Below the pieces are notes generated by a model. The model ran no database searches. It worked only from the letters and a program-made list of their open reading frames with translations, and was not told where the DNA came from. A stretch of 64,000 nucleotides of DNA from Aquitalea magnusonii (lineage in GTDB: Bacteria; Pseudomonadota; Gammaproteobacteria; Burkholderiales; Chromobacteriaceae): NCBI RefSeq assembly GCF_003202035.1, contig NZ_QJKC01000009.1:124001-188000 (forward strand), written 5' to 3'. Numbering within the stretch: the first letter of the stretch is position 1; the number at the start of each line of letters is the position of its first letter. Shown piece by piece: positions 30,636 through 37,304 of this stretch. The translations under genes and the position numbers were made by a program.

Positions 30636-31961
30636 TCAGGCGCTGACTGGCTGCGGCTGAGCCAGCGGCAGCAGGATGCGGATGCGGAAGCCGCCATCGG
30701 CCTCGTCAGCAAACTGCAGCTGGCCATGGTGCTGCTTGACCACGCGCGACACGATGGCCAGCCCCAGGCCGCTGCCGCCATCGGTGCCGCGGTGTTCGGC
30801 CAGCCGCTCGAAGGGGGCCAGCGCCGATTCGCGCAGCGCGGCGGGAATGCCCTGGCCGTGGTCGATCACGCTCAGTTCCGCCATGCCGTCGCGCTGGTCG
30901 ATTTCCACCCGCAGCGGCGGCTTGCCATAGCGGCGGGCGTTTTCCAGCAGATTGGACAGCAGCCGCTCCAGCGCCAGGGCATCGGCCTGCAGTTCCGGCT
31001 CGGCCTGGCGCAGCAGTTTCACATCCAGCCCGTCGCGGCCAAAACGCGCTACCACGCTGTCGGCCAGTTCGGCCAGCGCCACCGGCTCCAGCCTGGCCGA
31101 TTCTTCGGCACGGGCAAAGTCGATGAACTGGCGCACGATGCGCGACAGCTCGTCGATATCCGCCAGCATGTCCGGGGTATCGCTATTGTGTTCCTGCAGC
31201 TCCAGCATCAGCTTCAAGCGGGTCAGCGGGGTACGCAGGTCGTGCGACAGCCCGGCCAGCATCAGCCGGCGTTCACGGGCGGCGCTATCCAGCGCACTGG
31301 CCATGTGGTTGAAGCCGCGGGCCAGCGCCATCAGCTCGCGCGGCCCCTCTTCGGCCAGCGGCGGCGGCAGTTTGCCGCGCGCCAGCTCGCGTGAGGCTGC
31401 CACCACCTTGCCGATGGGGCGGGTGATGCGCCATGCCACCAGCGAGGCCAGCAAGGTGGCCAGCAAGGTGGCCAGCAGCGCAGCCTGGATGATGGCGTAG
31501 ATGGGCCGGTCGCTATAGCGGCCAAATGGAATCACCAGCCAGTAGGGGGTGTCCAGCACATGCACGTTGACCCATAGTTCGTTGCGGTCTTCGCGGTGCA
31601 CCATATAGCCGCGCACGGTGTCGTCCAGGCCCTTGCTCAGCCGGCTCACCAGGCTGTTGGCCACCCGCGGCAGTTCGGTGTCGAACTGTTGTCTGGCTGC
31701 GGCCTGTTGTGGCAGCAGGCGCGGCAGGCCGGGGCGGTTGTAGCTGGCCAGAAAAGCGCTGCGCTGGTCGGGGCTCATATTGTCCATCGAGCCTTCGAGG
31801 AAGGCCAGCGTGTCCACCACCTGGGCATACAGCTGCTTGTCCATCAGCTTGTGGCGCTCACCCGCCGCGATATAGACGGTGACGATCTGGGTGGTGACCA
31901 CCACCACCACCACCAGCACGATCAGGCGAAACAGCAGGGAACCGGCAAGGCGTCGCAGCAC
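30636..31961 (-). CDS. Sensor histidine kinase, EnvZ-like
   Basis: Inner-membrane sensor of 441 residues: transmembrane helix (about 12-30), periplasmic domain (about 31-150), second helix (about 155-180), HAMP domain, dimerisation domain with the phospho-acceptor His in LSHDLRTPLTRLKLMLE, and ATP-binding domain (LENARRYG, VIDHGQGIP, GGSGLGLAIV). It starts with GTG three bases after the stop of its response regulator gene. A short tandem repeat encodes LLATLLATLLAS in the second helix. The signal is unknown. Confidence 0.94.
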   Translation of the reverse strand: MLRRLAGSLLFRLIVLVVVVVVTTQIVTVYIAAGERHKLMDKQLYAQVVDTLAFLEGSMDNMSPDQRSAFLASYNRPGLPRLLPQQAAARQQFDTELPRVANSLVSRLSKGLDDTVRGYMVHREDRNELWVNVHVLDTPYWLVIPFGRYSDRPIYAIIQAALLATLLATLLASLVAWRITRPIGKVVAASRELARGKLPPPLAEEGPRELMALARGFNHMASALDSAARERRLMLAGLSHDLRTPLTRLKLMLELQEHNSDTPDMLADIDELSRIVRQFIDFARAEESARLEPVALAELADSVVARFGRDGLDVKLLRQAEPELQADALALERLLSNLLENARRYGKPPLRVEIDQRDGMAELSVIDHGQGIPAALRESALAPFERLAEHRGTDGGSGLGLAIVSRVVKQHHGQLQFADEADGGFRIRILLPLAQPQPVSA

Positions 31962-31964
31962 CGC

Positions 31965-32690
31965 TTACTCCCGTTCACTGCCGTCGGGCACGAAGACATA
32001 GCCGTAGCCCCACACGGTCTGAATGAAGCGCAGCGGGCTGTCGCCGCCCTCCAACGTTTTGCGCAGGCGGGATATATGCACGTCGATGCTGCGATCCAGC
32101 GATTCGCCATTGCCCTTGCCCAGCGCCATTTCCATCAGCTGTTCACGGGTGAGCGGGCGGCGCGGATGGGTGGCCAGCACGGTGAGTACGGCAAATTCGG
32201 CGGTGGTCAGCGACAGCGGCTGCTGGTTTTTCAGCAGTTCGCGCCGGCCCAGATTGAGCTGGAATTCGCCAAACTCGATCACCTCGTCGGACTCGTGGCG
32301 GGCGGCCAGCGCCGGGGTGGCGTGATGGCGGCGCAGCACCGACTGGATGCGCGCGGTCAGCTCGCGCGGATTGAAGGGTTTGGGCAGATAATCGTCGGCA
32401 CCCATTTCCAGGCCCAGGATGCGGTCCACATCCTCGCCACGGGCGGTCAGCATGATGACCGGCACCATCTCGCCCTGGGCGCGCAGGCGGCGCACCACGG
32501 CCAGGCCATCATCGCCGGGCATCATCACGTCCAGCACCATCAGGTCCGGACGGTTGCGTGCCAGTTTGCGGTCCAGTTCACGGGCATCCGGCAGGGTGTC
32601 GACCACATAACCCTGCTGGCCCAGATAGCGGGTGAGCAGTTCGCGCAGCTTGGCGTCGTCGTCGACGATGAGAATCTTGTTGTGTTCCAT
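31965..32690 (-). CDS. OmpR-family response regulator
   Basis: DNA-binding response regulator of 241 residues. The receiver domain (about 5-120) has acidic residues in IVDDDAKLR, the phospho-acceptor Asp in MVLDVMMPGDDG and Lys in YLPKPFNP. The winged-helix output domain (about 140-235) ends in SIDVHISRLRKTLE and VWGYGYVFVP. It is the partner of the EnvZ-like kinase directly downstream. ATG 32690 follows AAGGA. Two TAACAT repeats ten bases apart lie upstream, between it and a divergent gene for a small exported protein. Confidence 0.95.
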   Translation of the reverse strand: MEHNKILIVDDDAKLRELLTRYLGQQGYVVDTLPDARELDRKLARNRPDLMVLDVMMPGDDGLAVVRRLRAQGEMVPVIMLTARGEDVDRILGLEMGADDYLPKPFNPRELTARIQSVLRRHHATPALAARHESDEVIEFGEFQLNLGRRELLKNQQPLSLTTAEFAVLTVLATHPRRPLTREQLMEMALGKGNGESLDRSIDVHISRLRKTLEGGDSPLRFIQTVWGYGYVFVPDGSERE

Positions 32691-32810
32691 GGTGTTTTCC
32701 TTGATCGCCCGGCGCGGCAAAGCGGCTGGCATGCTGATGGCAAAGCTTAACCCGACCCAACCGGCTAGGCGATGGTGGATCATGAATTTCTGTTAAACGC
32801 CATCGGCCAT

Positions 32811-32840: not shown

Positions 32841-32905
32841 CACACGGATGCGCAAAGGCCGCCTTCTACACTGGGACGGTGTGCTGCATGCCGGAGATCA
32901 TGATC

Positions 32906-33118
32906 ATGAAAAAGTCCTTGATTTTACTGCTGTTTGCCATCTGTTTGCCGGGTCTGGCCGCGGTAGTGCAGGCGGCCGAGCGCGGTGGCAACGGTGCCGA
33001 TGTGCGCGAGGCGCGCCAGCTGGCCGCGCAAAGCACCCAGCAGGCAACGCCGCTTGCCGGTTACACCGTGCCGGATGGCGCATCGACCCCGATGCGGCGC
33101 CCAGCCGGTGAAAAGTAA
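32906..33118 (+). CDS. Small exported protein
   Basis: Not recognised. A 70-residue product with a strong signal peptide (MKKSLILLLFAICLPGLAAVVQA) and a ~46-residue mature part rich in Ala, Gln, Gly and Pro, without cysteines. ATG 32906 lies 9 bases after GGAG, while an in-frame ATG at 32900 is too close to it. It is divergent from the OmpR-type regulator and downstream of the tandem TAACAT repeat, so it is a likely target of that system. It is the first of three consecutive exported-protein genes. Confidence 0.7.
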   Translation: MKKSLILLLFAICLPGLAAVVQAAERGGNGADVREARQLAAQSTQQATPLAGYTVPDGASTPMRRPAGEK

Positions 33119-33208: not shown

Positions 33209-33580
33209 ATGAAGTACCATGCCATTTATGTCTTGCTGTTTGCCACGGTGACGGCGTTCGCCTTGCCAGCGCTGGCGCAAGGCCCGAATGGCGTGGAGGA
33301 TGGTGCAGCGCAGTTCCAGCGTTTCCCGCCCCGGCAAGCTGCCGGCGAGGAGCGCCGCTTGCGCAATCTGCGTCTGAAGGAGGCGGTGCAGGCCGGTGAT
33401 TTGTCGCCGGAAGACGCGCGCCGCCTGCAGCACAGACATCCTCCAGGGGCGCCGCCTGCGGGTGGCATGGGTGGACCTGACCGTTTTGCACCGGATGGTT
33501 TTTCGCATCCGCCGCCGGGCCAGCGCAATTTCTGGCGCGACAAGCGACAAAAGGCTCAGGAGCAATTCCAGAACGATTGA
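33209..33580 (+). CDS. Small exported Pro/Arg-rich protein
   Basis: Not recognised. The 123-residue product has a signal peptide (MKYHAIYVLLFATVTAFALPALA). The mature chain is rich in Arg, Pro, Gly and Gln, with a helical central part (EERRLRNLRLKEAVQAGDLSPEDARRL) and Pro-Gly-rich segments. It lacks cysteines. The DLSPEDARRL segment resembles short helices in periplasmic metal- or stress-response proteins, but this is only an impression. It lies between two other small exported proteins on the same strand. Confidence 0.65.
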   Translation: MKYHAIYVLLFATVTAFALPALAQGPNGVEDGAAQFQRFPPRQAAGEERRLRNLRLKEAVQAGDLSPEDARRLQHRHPPGAPPAGGMGGPDRFAPDGFSHPPPGQRNFWRDKRQKAQEQFQND

Positions 33581-33629: not shown

Positions 33630-34097
33630 TTGAACAAAGCTTGGGGTAAGTGGAGTAGCGGCAACTGGCTGGCGGGTTTGGCCATGCTGGCGGGTTTGGC
33701 ATGGTCGGCACAGCTGCAGGCGGCCCCGGAGTGTGACAAGGCGATGGCGCCGCAGCGCTGTGCCAGTTACCGCCAGGGCTGGCTCAGTTGTTCGGATCTG
33801 ACTGCCGGATCACGGCGCGCCTGTATCGAACAGTTCACCCCGGCGCTCAGTTGCCAGCGCAGCCGCGATGCCCGGCGCTGCGAGGCCTTGCTGGCGGCCC
33901 AGGCGGCCTGCGAGGGCAGCGAGGGGCTGGCGCGACGGCTGTGTGTGCGCGAGCGCCTGCCGGCGGCGGATTGCAGCCACGCCTCCAACAAGGCCCGCTG
34001 CGAACAGCGGGCGGCGGCCGAACAAAGCTGTGCCGAAACCGCAGCGCAGCAAGGCCGCGAATGCGTGCGCAAGGCCCTGGCACCTTCCGGCAACTGA
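33630..34097 (+). CDS. Secreted cysteine-repeat protein (three 40-residue repeats, twin-CX9C-like)
   Basis: Not recognised as any family. The 155-residue product starts at TTG 33630, 8 bases after AAGGA, and has a signal peptide (WLAGLAMLAGLAWSAQLQA). The mature chain has twelve cysteines at 35, 44, 54, 65, 75, 84, 94, 105, 115, 124, 134 and 145. The spacing x8, x9, x10, x9 is repeated exactly, so every cysteine recurs after 40 residues. Arg precedes or nearly precedes many of them (PQRC, ARRC, KARC). Read from the second cysteine, each unit is C-x9-C-x10-C-x9-C, the pattern of twin-CX9C helical hairpins. The cysteines probably form disulfides in the periplasm. Function unknown. Confidence 0.75.
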   Translation: MNKAWGKWSSGNWLAGLAMLAGLAWSAQLQAAPECDKAMAPQRCASYRQGWLSCSDLTAGSRRACIEQFTPALSCQRSRDARRCEALLAAQAACEGSEGLARRLCVRERLPAADCSHASNKARCEQRAAAEQSCAETAAQQGRECVRKALAPSGN

Positions 34098-34111: not shown

Positions 34112-34143
34112 AAAACCCCGCTGTCGCGACAGCGGGGTTTTTC
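34112..34143. terminator. Strong bidirectional terminator
   Basis: AAAACCCCGCTGTCG and CGACAGCGGGGTTTT form a nearly continuous perfect stem with A and T tracts on the two sides, between the cysteine-repeat gene and the convergent quinone oxidoreductase gene. Confidence 0.93.
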
Positions 34144-35133: not shown

Positions 35134-35349
35134 GGTACGGTCCTTTTCCAGCATGAAGACATGGCGTCGAGTCTGCACCGCGTACCGGCGCCATGCAAGC
35201 CGTGTCTGGCGAACAGTGCGTTTCCCGCGGGGGGCTGACTTGGTGTTTGGCCGGTTTTCTTCCTACATTGAATCCAGGGTACCTTGCTGCCAGCAGGGAA
35301 GATCGGATCGGGCGGAGCAGATCATGCAAGCCACACGAAGGGAACAAGC

Positions 35350-35889
35350 ATGAAAGGCGTGGTGTTTACCGAGTTTCTGGAAATGGTGGAGAGCCGTTTT
35401 TCTGCCGACATGGTGGATGACATCATCGAGGATGCCGGCATCAAGTCAGGAGGTGCCTACACCGCGGTGGGCAGCTACCCCTTTGCCGAGATGGTGGCGC
35501 TGGTGACGGCCTTGTCGCAGCGCAGCGGGCTGGAGCCGCAGGCGCTGATCTACGCCTTCGGCCATTACCTGTTCGGGCGTTTTGCCCTGCTGTATCCGTA
35601 CAGCATCCAGGGTTGCAGCAATGCATTCATGGTGCTGAGCAATATCGAGAAACACATTCACCAGGAAGTACACAAGCTCTATCCGGATGCACAACTGCCC
35701 CATATCGAGGTGCTCAGCAGCGATGAGCGCTGCCTGACCTTGCTGTACCGCTCGCCGCGCTGCCTGGCCCCGCTGGCTTCCGGGCTGATCCAGGGGGCGC
35801 TCGATCATTTCGGCGAGCAGGGGCGCATCGTGGTCGAGCCATTGAACGATGAAGGCAGCAAGGTGCGCTTTGTGGTGGAACTGGTATGA
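35350..35889 (+). CDS. H-NOX heme-nitric oxide sensor
   Basis: Soluble heme sensor of 179 residues that binds nitric oxide (in some relatives oxygen). The fold is recognisable from MKGVVFTEFLEMVE at the start. The proximal heme ligand is probably His104 in KHIHQEVHKLYP, and the porphyrin-propionate motif Y-x-S-x-R is Tyr133-Ser135-Arg137 (YRSPR). The ATG at 35350 follows GAAGGGAA. Its stop overlaps the start of the hybrid kinase by four bases (ATGA), the usual arrangement of H-NOX with its cognate kinase. Confidence 0.95.
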   Translation: MKGVVFTEFLEMVESRFSADMVDDIIEDAGIKSGGAYTAVGSYPFAEMVALVTALSQRSGLEPQALIYAFGHYLFGRFALLYPYSIQGCSNAFMVLSNIEKHIHQEVHKLYPDAQLPHIEVLSSDERCLTLLYRSPRCLAPLASGLIQGALDHFGEQGRIVVEPLNDEGSKVRFVVELV

Positions 35890-37304
35890 GCGAAGACGAA
35901 CTGGCCCAGTTGCAAGACCAGCTGCTGCGTTACCAGAAGCGCTACCAGCGCGAGAAAGCCGCGCGCAAGGAGGCCGAGGTATTGCTGGAACAGCGCAGCC
36001 GCGCCTTGTACGACGCCAATTTCGAATTGTCCACCGTGGCGGCCCAACTGGAGAAGATCGTCGAATGGCGCATGGCCCAGCTGTCCGAGGCCCTGCTCAA
36101 GGCGGAAATGGCGGCCAAGGCCAAGTCGGAATTCCTGGCGGTGATGAGCCACGAAATCCGTACGCCGCTCAACGGGGTGCTGGGCATGGCCGAGTTGCTG
36201 TCCCATTCCAAGCTGACCGCGGAGCAGGGCGAGCAGGTGGCCACCTTGCAGGAGTGCGGCACTTCGCTGCTGGCGCTGATCAACGACATTCTCGACCTGT
36301 CCAAGATCGATGCCGGCAAGCTGACACTGGAACAGCGGCCTTACAATCTGTATGCCCTGCTCGATAGCGTGGTCAACCTGTTTGTGCCCAAGGCGATGGA
36401 GGCCGGCCTGCATATCGAATGGCAACGGCCACAGGGCAGCGCCTGGCTGCTGGGCGATGCCACCCGGCTGCGCCAGATCACCAGCAACCTGCTGAGCAAT
36501 GCCATCAAGTTCACCCACCAGGGTGCGATCACCGTGACGGTGGGCATCGAACCGCTGGAAGATACCTTCGACATGAAGCGTCTGGTGCTGGTGATCCGTG
36601 ATACCGGCATCGGCATGACCCAGGAGCAGCTGGGCAAGGTGTTTACCGCCTTTGAGCAGGCCGACTCCACCACCACCCGCCGCTATGGCGGCACCGGGCT
36701 GGGGCTGGCCATCTGCCGACGCCTGGCCGAGGCCATGGGCGGGCGCATCGATGTCAGCAGCGAGCCCGGTGTGGGCAGCTGCTTCAGCGTGCACTGGGTT
36801 GCCACTGAGACCAGCGCTCCGGCCGCCGAGGCGCCGGTCATCGTGCTACCGGAGGAGGCGCCGAGCCCTGGGGCGGCCGCGCTGTCGGTCATGGTGGCCG
36901 AGGACAATACGGTGAACCAGAAGTTGATCATCAAGCTGCTGGACAAGCTGGGTTACCGCGATGTGCTGCTGGCCGCCAACGGGCGGCAGGCGCTGGAACG
37001 GGTCAGCCAGGGCGGGGTGGAGCTGATCCTGATGGACATGCAGATGCCGGAAATGGACGGGCTGGACGCCACCCGCGCCATCCGTCAGCTGGAGCTGGAC
37101 TGCCAGCCCCACATCATTGCGCTGACCGCCAATGCCTTCGATGAAGACCGCGAGCGTTGCCAGCAGGCGGGCATGAATGACTTCCTGTCCAAGCCGGTCA
37201 GCCTGGAGCGCCTGTCCGTGGCCATGCAGCGGGCCAGCAGCCTGCTCAGCAAGCAGAAGCAGCCCAGTCCAGCAGGGGAGCCAGACACTCAGGCCAGCGC
37301 TTGA
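35886..37304 (+). CDS. Hybrid histidine kinase associated with H-NOX
   Basis: Cytoplasmic kinase of 472 residues without membrane segments. An N-terminal coiled coil (about 1-75) is followed by the dimerisation domain with His89 (MSHEIRTPLNG), the ATP-binding domain (SNAIKFTHQG, IRDTGIGM, GGTGLGLAICRRL) and a C-terminal receiver with Asp384 (LILMDMQMPEMDG) and Lys in FLSKPVS. NO binding to H-NOX probably inhibits its autophosphorylation, as in Shewanella and Vibrio HnoK systems. No output regulator is adjacent. Its last 59 bases overlap the convergent yqiA gene. Confidence 0.94.
   Translation: MSEDELAQLQDQLLRYQKRYQREKAARKEAEVLLEQRSRALYDANFELSTVAAQLEKIVEWRMAQLSEALLKAEMAAKAKSEFLAVMSHEIRTPLNGVLGMAELLSHSKLTAEQGEQVATLQECGTSLLALINDILDLSKIDAGKLTLEQRPYNLYALLDSVVNLFVPKAMEAGLHIEWQRPQGSAWLLGDATRLRQITSNLLSNAIKFTHQGAITVTVGIEPLEDTFDMKRLVLVIRDTGIGMTQEQLGKVFTAFEQADSTTTRRYGGTGLGLAICRRLAEAMGGRIDVSSEPGVGSCFSVHWVATETSAPAAEAPVIVLPEEAPSPGAAALSVMVAEDNTVNQKLIIKLLDKLGYRDVLLAANGRQALERVSQGGVELILMDMQMPEMDGLDATRAIRQLELDCQPHIIALTANAFDEDRERCQQAGMNDFLSKPVSLERLSVAMQRASSLLSKQKQPSPAGEPDTQASA

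Follow-up and report, generated by a model that had tools for sequence, protein, structure and literature searches.

Disulfide-held helical repeats are already known. The Sel1-like Hcp proteins of Helicobacter are cysteine-rich and exported, with alpha-helical repeats of about 40 residues that hold one disulfide each; the GLG1-type repeat (Pfam PF00839), which is found in bacterial proteins too, has four cysteines; and PsiF is a short exported repeat with two cysteines, one before and one after a G-x-E-R-K-like stretch. The CHCH proteins, imported into the mitochondrial intermembrane space by Mia40, are small and helical and carry cysteines nine residues apart on paired helices, as in ATPTG9, CHCHD5, mS37 and NDUFS5; mS37 and 7zm7_U are twin-CX9C proteins. 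A disulfide-held helical hairpin of plant origin is vicilin-buried peptide 8 (6o3q).

The gene described here lies in a stretch of 64,000 nucleotides, referred to below as the window, from an Aquitalea genome (NCBI lineage Betaproteobacteria, Neisseriales, Chromobacteriaceae). Its product is a member of what appears to be an undescribed bacterial family with one to five four-cysteine units per protein. Four cysteines per unit distinguish it from the Sel1-like Hcp proteins and from the PsiF repeat, which has two, and its cysteine spacing differs from that of the GLG1-type repeat. None of the three was listed at E up to 1 for the window protein or for 15 + 33 aligned members, in searches where the HMMER filters drop most matches above about 0.1. 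Vicilin-buried peptide 8 is likewise a small helical hairpin and matched our unit model weakly (E 6.9), with a cysteine pattern that differs from that of the window unit.

The first-pass annotation, made from the sequence, knew of no described bacterial family with this layout, and no Pfam, NCBIfam, PHROGs or PADLOC model matched the window protein convincingly. The best Pfam match across the window protein and 30 + 15 + 33 aligned members was an unconvincing BLTP1_N (E 0.0055), and the window protein scored 11.8 bits vs a cut-off of 100. The best NCBIfam E for the window protein and 33 members was 0.031, again unconvincing, and for the window protein itself PHROGs gave at best 0.65 and PADLOC nothing. 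Among the literature matches listed, no title or abstract opening names such a bacterial family. The libraries searched contain neither the unit, nor its multiplication from one to five copies, nor the family, which adds to the known bacterial repeats one with a clean unit rule. Most probably the protein is exported, is oxidised by the Dsb system and acts as a helical scaffold or a binding module, its export, oxidation and function being what we infer; we put the probability that it is a stapled helical scaffold at roughly three in four.

Gene, cysteine register and unit phase

The cysteine-repeat gene (33630..34097, + strand, stop included) is an open frame of 155 aa with a TTG start, upstream of which AAGGAT was read by eye; many relatives from other genera have ATG starts at slightly shifted positions. 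The signal peptide reported earlier is present as a hydrophobic N-terminal export signal (residues 1-31, 33630..33722, + strand), recognised by eye and with its cleavage site estimated by eye. The mature part is basic, with a computed pI of 8.7. An inverted repeat followed by T runs lies 3′ of the stop codon (34112..34141) and looks like a terminator for this gene and the converging one. It was scored as a terminator on the - strand alone, and shuffled sequence contains sites of this kind just as often (2 found, mean 1.9).

As the genome is GC-rich, with long open frames in many phases, the frame might be a product of chance and its periodicity accidental. Comparison with six same-genus relatives speaks against this: dN of the mature part was 0.019-0.149 and dS 0.57-2.49, with dN higher in the export signal than in the mature part in 6/6 comparisons. 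Since dN lies far below dS, the frame is counted, on evolutionary evidence, as a translated gene under purifying selection. Homologues in eight genera, moreover, keep fixed cysteines. Together these findings refute a chance open frame, to which we give a negligible probability.

The twelve cysteines of the window protein stand at 35, 44, 54, 65, 75, 84, 94, 105, 115, 124, 134 and 145, and eight of them have a partner exactly 40 residues further on. When the mature sequence was shuffled 20,000 times and scored at the best period within 20-60, the maximum was 6 period partners, reached in 7 cases. The positions and the exact 40-residue register given in the first-pass annotation are thus confirmed and exceed what shuffling produces. 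It had also described the residues between the cysteines as diverged, and indeed only 5/36, 8/36 and 5/36 non-cysteine residues are identical between units. Its proposal that the cysteine scaffold is under selection agrees with dN far below dS and with a cysteine spacing that, when checked, proved to be conserved across homologues.

Where the earlier description does not hold is the boundary of the unit. Both C-x9-C-x8-C-x9-C and C-x9-C-x10-C-x9-C occur across unit borders of the window protein, and the latter had been taken as the unit; the incomplete third unit and the spare Cys35 reported on that basis follow from the frame chosen. We instead read the repeat unit as C-x8-C-x9-C-x10-C (cysteines a, b, c and d), the phase used by one-, two-, three- and five-unit relatives, because a one-unit relative and many two-unit relatives use it. 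The window protein then consists of three complete units: C35-x8-C44-x9-C54-x10-C65 (33732..33824), C75-x8-C84-x9-C94-x10-C105 (33852..33944) and C115-x8-C124-x9-C134-x10-C145 (33972..34064), all on the + strand. The third unit has its last cysteine, and Cys35 is cysteine a of the first rather than a leftover, in line with the even cysteine counts of 82/82 relatives described below.

Relatives, unit number and cysteine parity

An A. palustris protein is 98% identical to the window protein. Single-sequence and profile searches agree on a homologue in 45/61 Chromobacteriaceae genomes (own included), spanning 8/10 genera, and the profile search did not find the gene in the other 16/61. A two-unit profile matched 24/399 genomes of the order. 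Six belong to the own family (f1), and the others spread over four further families of the order: f23 (eight), f21 (seven), f46 (two) and f11 (one). Within f21, 49/150 genomes match. Beyond the order, with the best candidates per genome scored, only the own genome matched in a class sample of 369 genomes, and only the own genome and one frame of G1004 in a phylum sample of 249. The G1004 frame (E 6e-4) was set aside as a 46-residue frame with two stops, as was a match in G251 of family f34 (E 2e-4) in which the unit pattern is absent; a candidate second copy in the own genome (E 0.039) was rejected because the match holds a stop and no cysteine pattern. No relative was confirmed in the viral contigs scanned, and a plasmid search with one relative as query gave no match.

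The first alignment comprised 30 of 35 homologous frames, leaving out L003, L010, L011, L014 and L015, which duplicate other records or a single gene; nine of the twelve cysteines never vary among these 30 relatives, and a further two reach at least 90% conservation. Unit number varies widely. One relative, a single gene in G331 (L072), has 4 cysteines in exactly the C-x8-C-x9-C-x10-C arrangement; two units are found in G302 and G243, three in G273 and G752, and five, with 20 cysteines, in G778. In f21, 24 of the 27 loci read encode two units with a spacing of 9-10-11-10-9-10-11 and the other three encode three units. Intact chains start at cysteine a and finish at d; a C-terminal tail brings two further cysteines in L042 and L132.

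Spacing within the unit is close to uniform: in 202 parsed units the a-b distance is 9 in 182, b-c is 10 in 189 and c-d is 11 in 192. Consecutive units are separated by 10 in 72/72 Chromobacteriaceae joins and 39/40 f21 joins, by 12 in 6/6 f23 joins, and by 9 and 18 in two other joins. In seven f21 units the b-c distance is 14, which adds one turn of helix and leaves a-b and c-d at or close to their usual values. A few f23 values of 11 for b-c and 10 for c-d are artefacts: a cysteine ahead of the gene itself caused L067 and L071 to be parsed as one unit, whereas inspection by eye shows two in each.

In all 82 distinct relatives the number of cysteines between the start of the first unit and the stop is even: 12 in 40 of them, 10 in six, 8 in 34, and 20 and 4 in one each. 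Counted in this way, cysteines of the signal and two that precede the first unit in L138 are omitted. The spacing and parity figures also omit G169 (assembly gap in the frame), G251 (no pattern), G764 (a 44-residue frame with a stop inside the match), duplicates, and matches in f21 and f1 lacking a given or fetched locus.

The third unit decays in some relatives of genus g2. In L027, L033, L035 and L084 cysteines c and d are both lost while a and b are kept, the latter separated by x8 in one case and by x5 or x6 in three; in L029, L030, L032, L036 and L099 the decayed unit retains four cysteines at altered spacing. These nine loci form a natural series of unit loss.

Predicted fold and disulfide pairing

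A model of the whole mature protein, built from six rows, was poor (pLDDT 63.8, pTM 0.36). The 48-residue unit was modelled from an alignment of 18 rows, three units each from the window protein and five Aquitalea relatives, and gave a mean pLDDT of 76.4 for the second unit of the window protein (five models, 74.2-76.4) and a pTM of 0.51. The model is a helix-loop-helix with helices at 2-7, 12-24 and 31-40, and the helical hairpins proposed in the first-pass annotation are accordingly predicted for the unit, in the latter two helices. The short first helix carries cysteine a; b lies close to the beginning of helix A and c immediately beyond its end, and d falls within helix B. Apart from the cysteines, apolar sites are few (clearest at A12, A16, L32 and L36 by mean hydropathy over 132 unit sequences); the hydrophobic core looks thin, so that staples would have to carry much of the stability. 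Structure searches found nothing significant with either the unit model (best E 4.5) or the whole-protein model (best E 3.8), and mutual information between unit positions was uninformative, being dominated by the invariant cysteines and the pseudocount.

From these features we propose an exported three-unit repeat protein, periplasmic or secreted, in which each unit would be a small helical hairpin. Cysteine a would be followed by an eight-residue loop, helix A would run from b to c, and after a ten-residue turn helix B would bear d, from which the chain would continue to cysteine a of the next unit. Disulfides would join neighbours across each loop, a to b and c to d, and would be formed in the periplasm by the DsbA/DsbB system; DsbA-like and DsbB genes are present in the own genome. 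With every turn of the chain stapled in this way, units could be gained or lost without stranding a cysteine. The product would be a short, rigid, basic scaffold, most likely a module that binds or structurally supports a partner in the envelope, although such an envelope-tied role is put forward tentatively and may well prove wrong.

The a-b and c-d pairing is favoured because of the even counts, the joint loss of c and d, the 14-residue b-c distance and the phase of the one-unit relative. Were a-b and c-d partners, c and d would be expected to disappear together while a and b stay. Cysteines b and c of the one-unit protein are ten apart on one predicted helix, which makes their mutual pairing unlikely. 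We give a stapled helical scaffold with this particular pairing a little better than even odds. For the three-unit form, parity alone cannot separate neighbour pairing from nested pairing with the end cysteines joined or free.

That nested arrangement is the one expected if the units are twin-CX9C (CHCH-type) hairpins, with outer-outer and inner-inner disulfides and one end cysteine on each side paired or free. The CX9C spacings that run along the chain across unit borders would suit it, as would the helical hairpin of the unit model. So would the profile searches against solved structures, in which ATPTG9, described with two CHCH domains in a passage of PMC10653836, was the first match, always below threshold (E 0.045, 0.015, 0.011 and 0.048, a range of 0.011-0.048). 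The second match, where listed, was mS37 (E 0.25 and 0.29), and one listing had a complex I subunit and CHCHD5 further down. By name, 4/6 sequences in one profile listing and 3/5 in another were CHCH-type, none of them significant.

Whether spacing drives this likeness was probed with a scrambled control, run once, in which the eight cysteine columns of the 12-row profile were kept and all other columns scrambled. Its top entry was CARD9 (0.074), versions of NDUFS5 made up 13/14 of the sequences listed (best E 0.34), and ATPTG9 was unlisted; the true 12-row profile listed ATPTG9 alone, at E 0.048. The return of NDUFS5 by a scrambled profile indicates that cysteine spacing alone can bring up CHCH proteins, while the absence of ATPTG9 from that list speaks for the CHCH reading, and the likeness may go beyond spacing. 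Curated CHCH-type Pfam models were all far from their cut-offs across 15 + 33 aligned members: COX6B (0.022), NDUF_B7 (0.049) and COX17 (0.66) each appeared for one member of the 15, beside six unrelated families, and CX9C (PF16860) for one of the 33 at E 0.38, beside seven other families. With no Pfam cut-off reached, CHCH membership was rejected as a claim.

The unit phase argues against nested pairing, which in the a-b-c-d phase would leave unpaired ends in the one-unit and many two-unit relatives, and an odd cysteine count was found in 0/82 relatives. We therefore regard nested twin-CX9C hairpins as improbable. On the side of the twin-CX9C reading of the first-pass annotation are the CX9C spacing along the chain and the hairpin model; on the other side are the one-unit relative, with its single CX9C, and the lack of any CHCH model over its cut-off.

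The unit of the stapled scaffold may nevertheless resemble a CHCH hairpin as a pair of stapled helices, a likeness drawn from sub-threshold matches that may be partly spacing-driven. Unlike CHCH proteins, members of the window family carry a bacterial export signal (read by eye), and their C-x8-C-x9-C-x10-C unit occurs in one to five copies and can stand alone with one CX9C. Pairing would be between neighbours, in contrast to the nested pairs of CHCH proteins. Somewhat short of an even chance is the fuller picture of an extensible helical solenoid, each turn stapled by a neighbour disulfide, whose unit may be single or strung to five and whose CHCH-like spacing was reached independently in another oxidising compartment. 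If neighbour pairing is true, the family would offer a natural, length-adjustable, disulfide-stapled helical scaffold for the study of oxidative folding and for protein design. The family is also a test case for convergence, with like cysteine spacing in two oxidising compartments served by the unrelated machineries DsbA and Mia40.

Genomic context and possible role

In Chromobacteriaceae the cysteine-repeat gene would be the last of a small presumed operon divergent from envZ/ompR. In the window, the OmpR response regulator (31965..32783, - strand) passes the NCBIfam OmpR equivalog cut-off (335.4 vs 331 bits), and the adjacent EnvZ-like sensor kinase (30636..31961, - strand) has EnvZ as its best NCBIfam match, at 241.2 vs a cut-off of 415 bits. 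The presumed operon begins with s79 (32879..33118, + strand), a small exported protein recognised in Aquitalea loci only, which weakly matches the unnamed phrog_35391 (E 0.0073). It is followed by s123 (33209..33580, + strand), whose product is small, basic and exported and contains the motif LRxLRLxEA. The window s123 has no Pfam or NCBIfam match, and one homologue weakly matches Metal_resist (E 0.033).

CpxP sits beside CpxRA, and by analogy the cysteine protein could be a periplasmic accessory of EnvZ/OmpR that binds the EnvZ sensor domain or relieves a stress read by EnvZ. This would accord with the gene order in 24 loci drawn from the 45 genomes with the cysteine gene. In 24/24 of them (four Aquitalea and twenty others, eight genera) ompR and envZ lie divergent near it, and an s123 homologue stands between ompR and the cysteine gene in all 20/20 non-Aquitalea loci (11/20 by tblastn alone). 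However, ompR is kept in 16/16 family genomes without the cysteine gene, and s123 is visible in 11/16 of these, one other locus having 300 bases on that side. In one Aquitalea genome (G009) only the cysteine gene, last in the row, has apparently been lost. It is s123 rather than the cysteine gene that accompanies ompR more steadily, and beside relatives in other families there are other neighbours. A fixed functional bond with EnvZ/OmpR was rejected on these grounds, and an accessory role of the CpxP kind is unlikely.

The s123 homologues (L080-L099, L149, L153, L154 and L156-L163) share a fuller motif, LRxLRLxEAxxxGDxxxEEA. In loci of genera g3, g4, g5, g6 and g10 a further small exported protein with an SGALTDAEL-like motif also lies between ompR and the cysteine gene; it adjoins ompR in L086-L088, L090, L092, L095-L098 and L158-L163. 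One member of this type matches Pfam FlxA at E 1.7e-06, just above the cut-off and probably through its coiled coil.

Other lineages place other genes beside the family. A gene of one and the same cluster lies near the relative in five of seven f21 loci, four of which belong to one genus; in the two loci checked it codes for a T2SSE-type ATPase. Among the f23 loci, L107, L109 and L111 have a gene for a TonB receptor, a PKHD-type hydroxylase or TonB nearby, and L108 has an M13 peptidase gene. As the neighbours differ between lineages, the unit resembles a transferable module that takes different partners in different lineages, and no role is pinned by context, because neighbours vary in this way and 16/61 family genomes are without the gene.

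All eight f23 relatives read (L045, L065-L071) end in SPMGH, and this ending, together with the TonB receptor, PKHD-type hydroxylase and TonB neighbours, hints at a role in iron uptake in that family. The same three f23 loci would fit a direct metal-binding function, with copper or zinc bound by the cysteine thiolates or copper delivered in the manner of COX17, and so would the Met/Gly-rich linkers ahead of the units in several f21 relatives. Yet the cysteines are 8-10 residues apart, and neither CC nor CxxC occurs in the mature window protein. Disulfides are what the even counts and the pairwise loss fit, and the DsbA-like and DsbB genes to make them are present; there is accordingly little likelihood that metal binding is what the cysteines are for. 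The disulfide-stapled scaffold remains the preferred reading.

Two further features were seen in passing. Relatives from f21 often have Gly/Met/Pro-rich linkers preceding the first unit, which recall copper-handling proteins, and several others have Lys-rich tails (linkers or tails in L041, L042, L055, L060, L122, L123, L132 and L133). Further along the window, at 35284-37304, an H-NOX gene (Pfam HNOB, E 2e-36) overlaps a gene for a sensor kinase with a receiver domain, the kinase being recognised by eye; the two are likely a nitric oxide or oxygen sensing pair.
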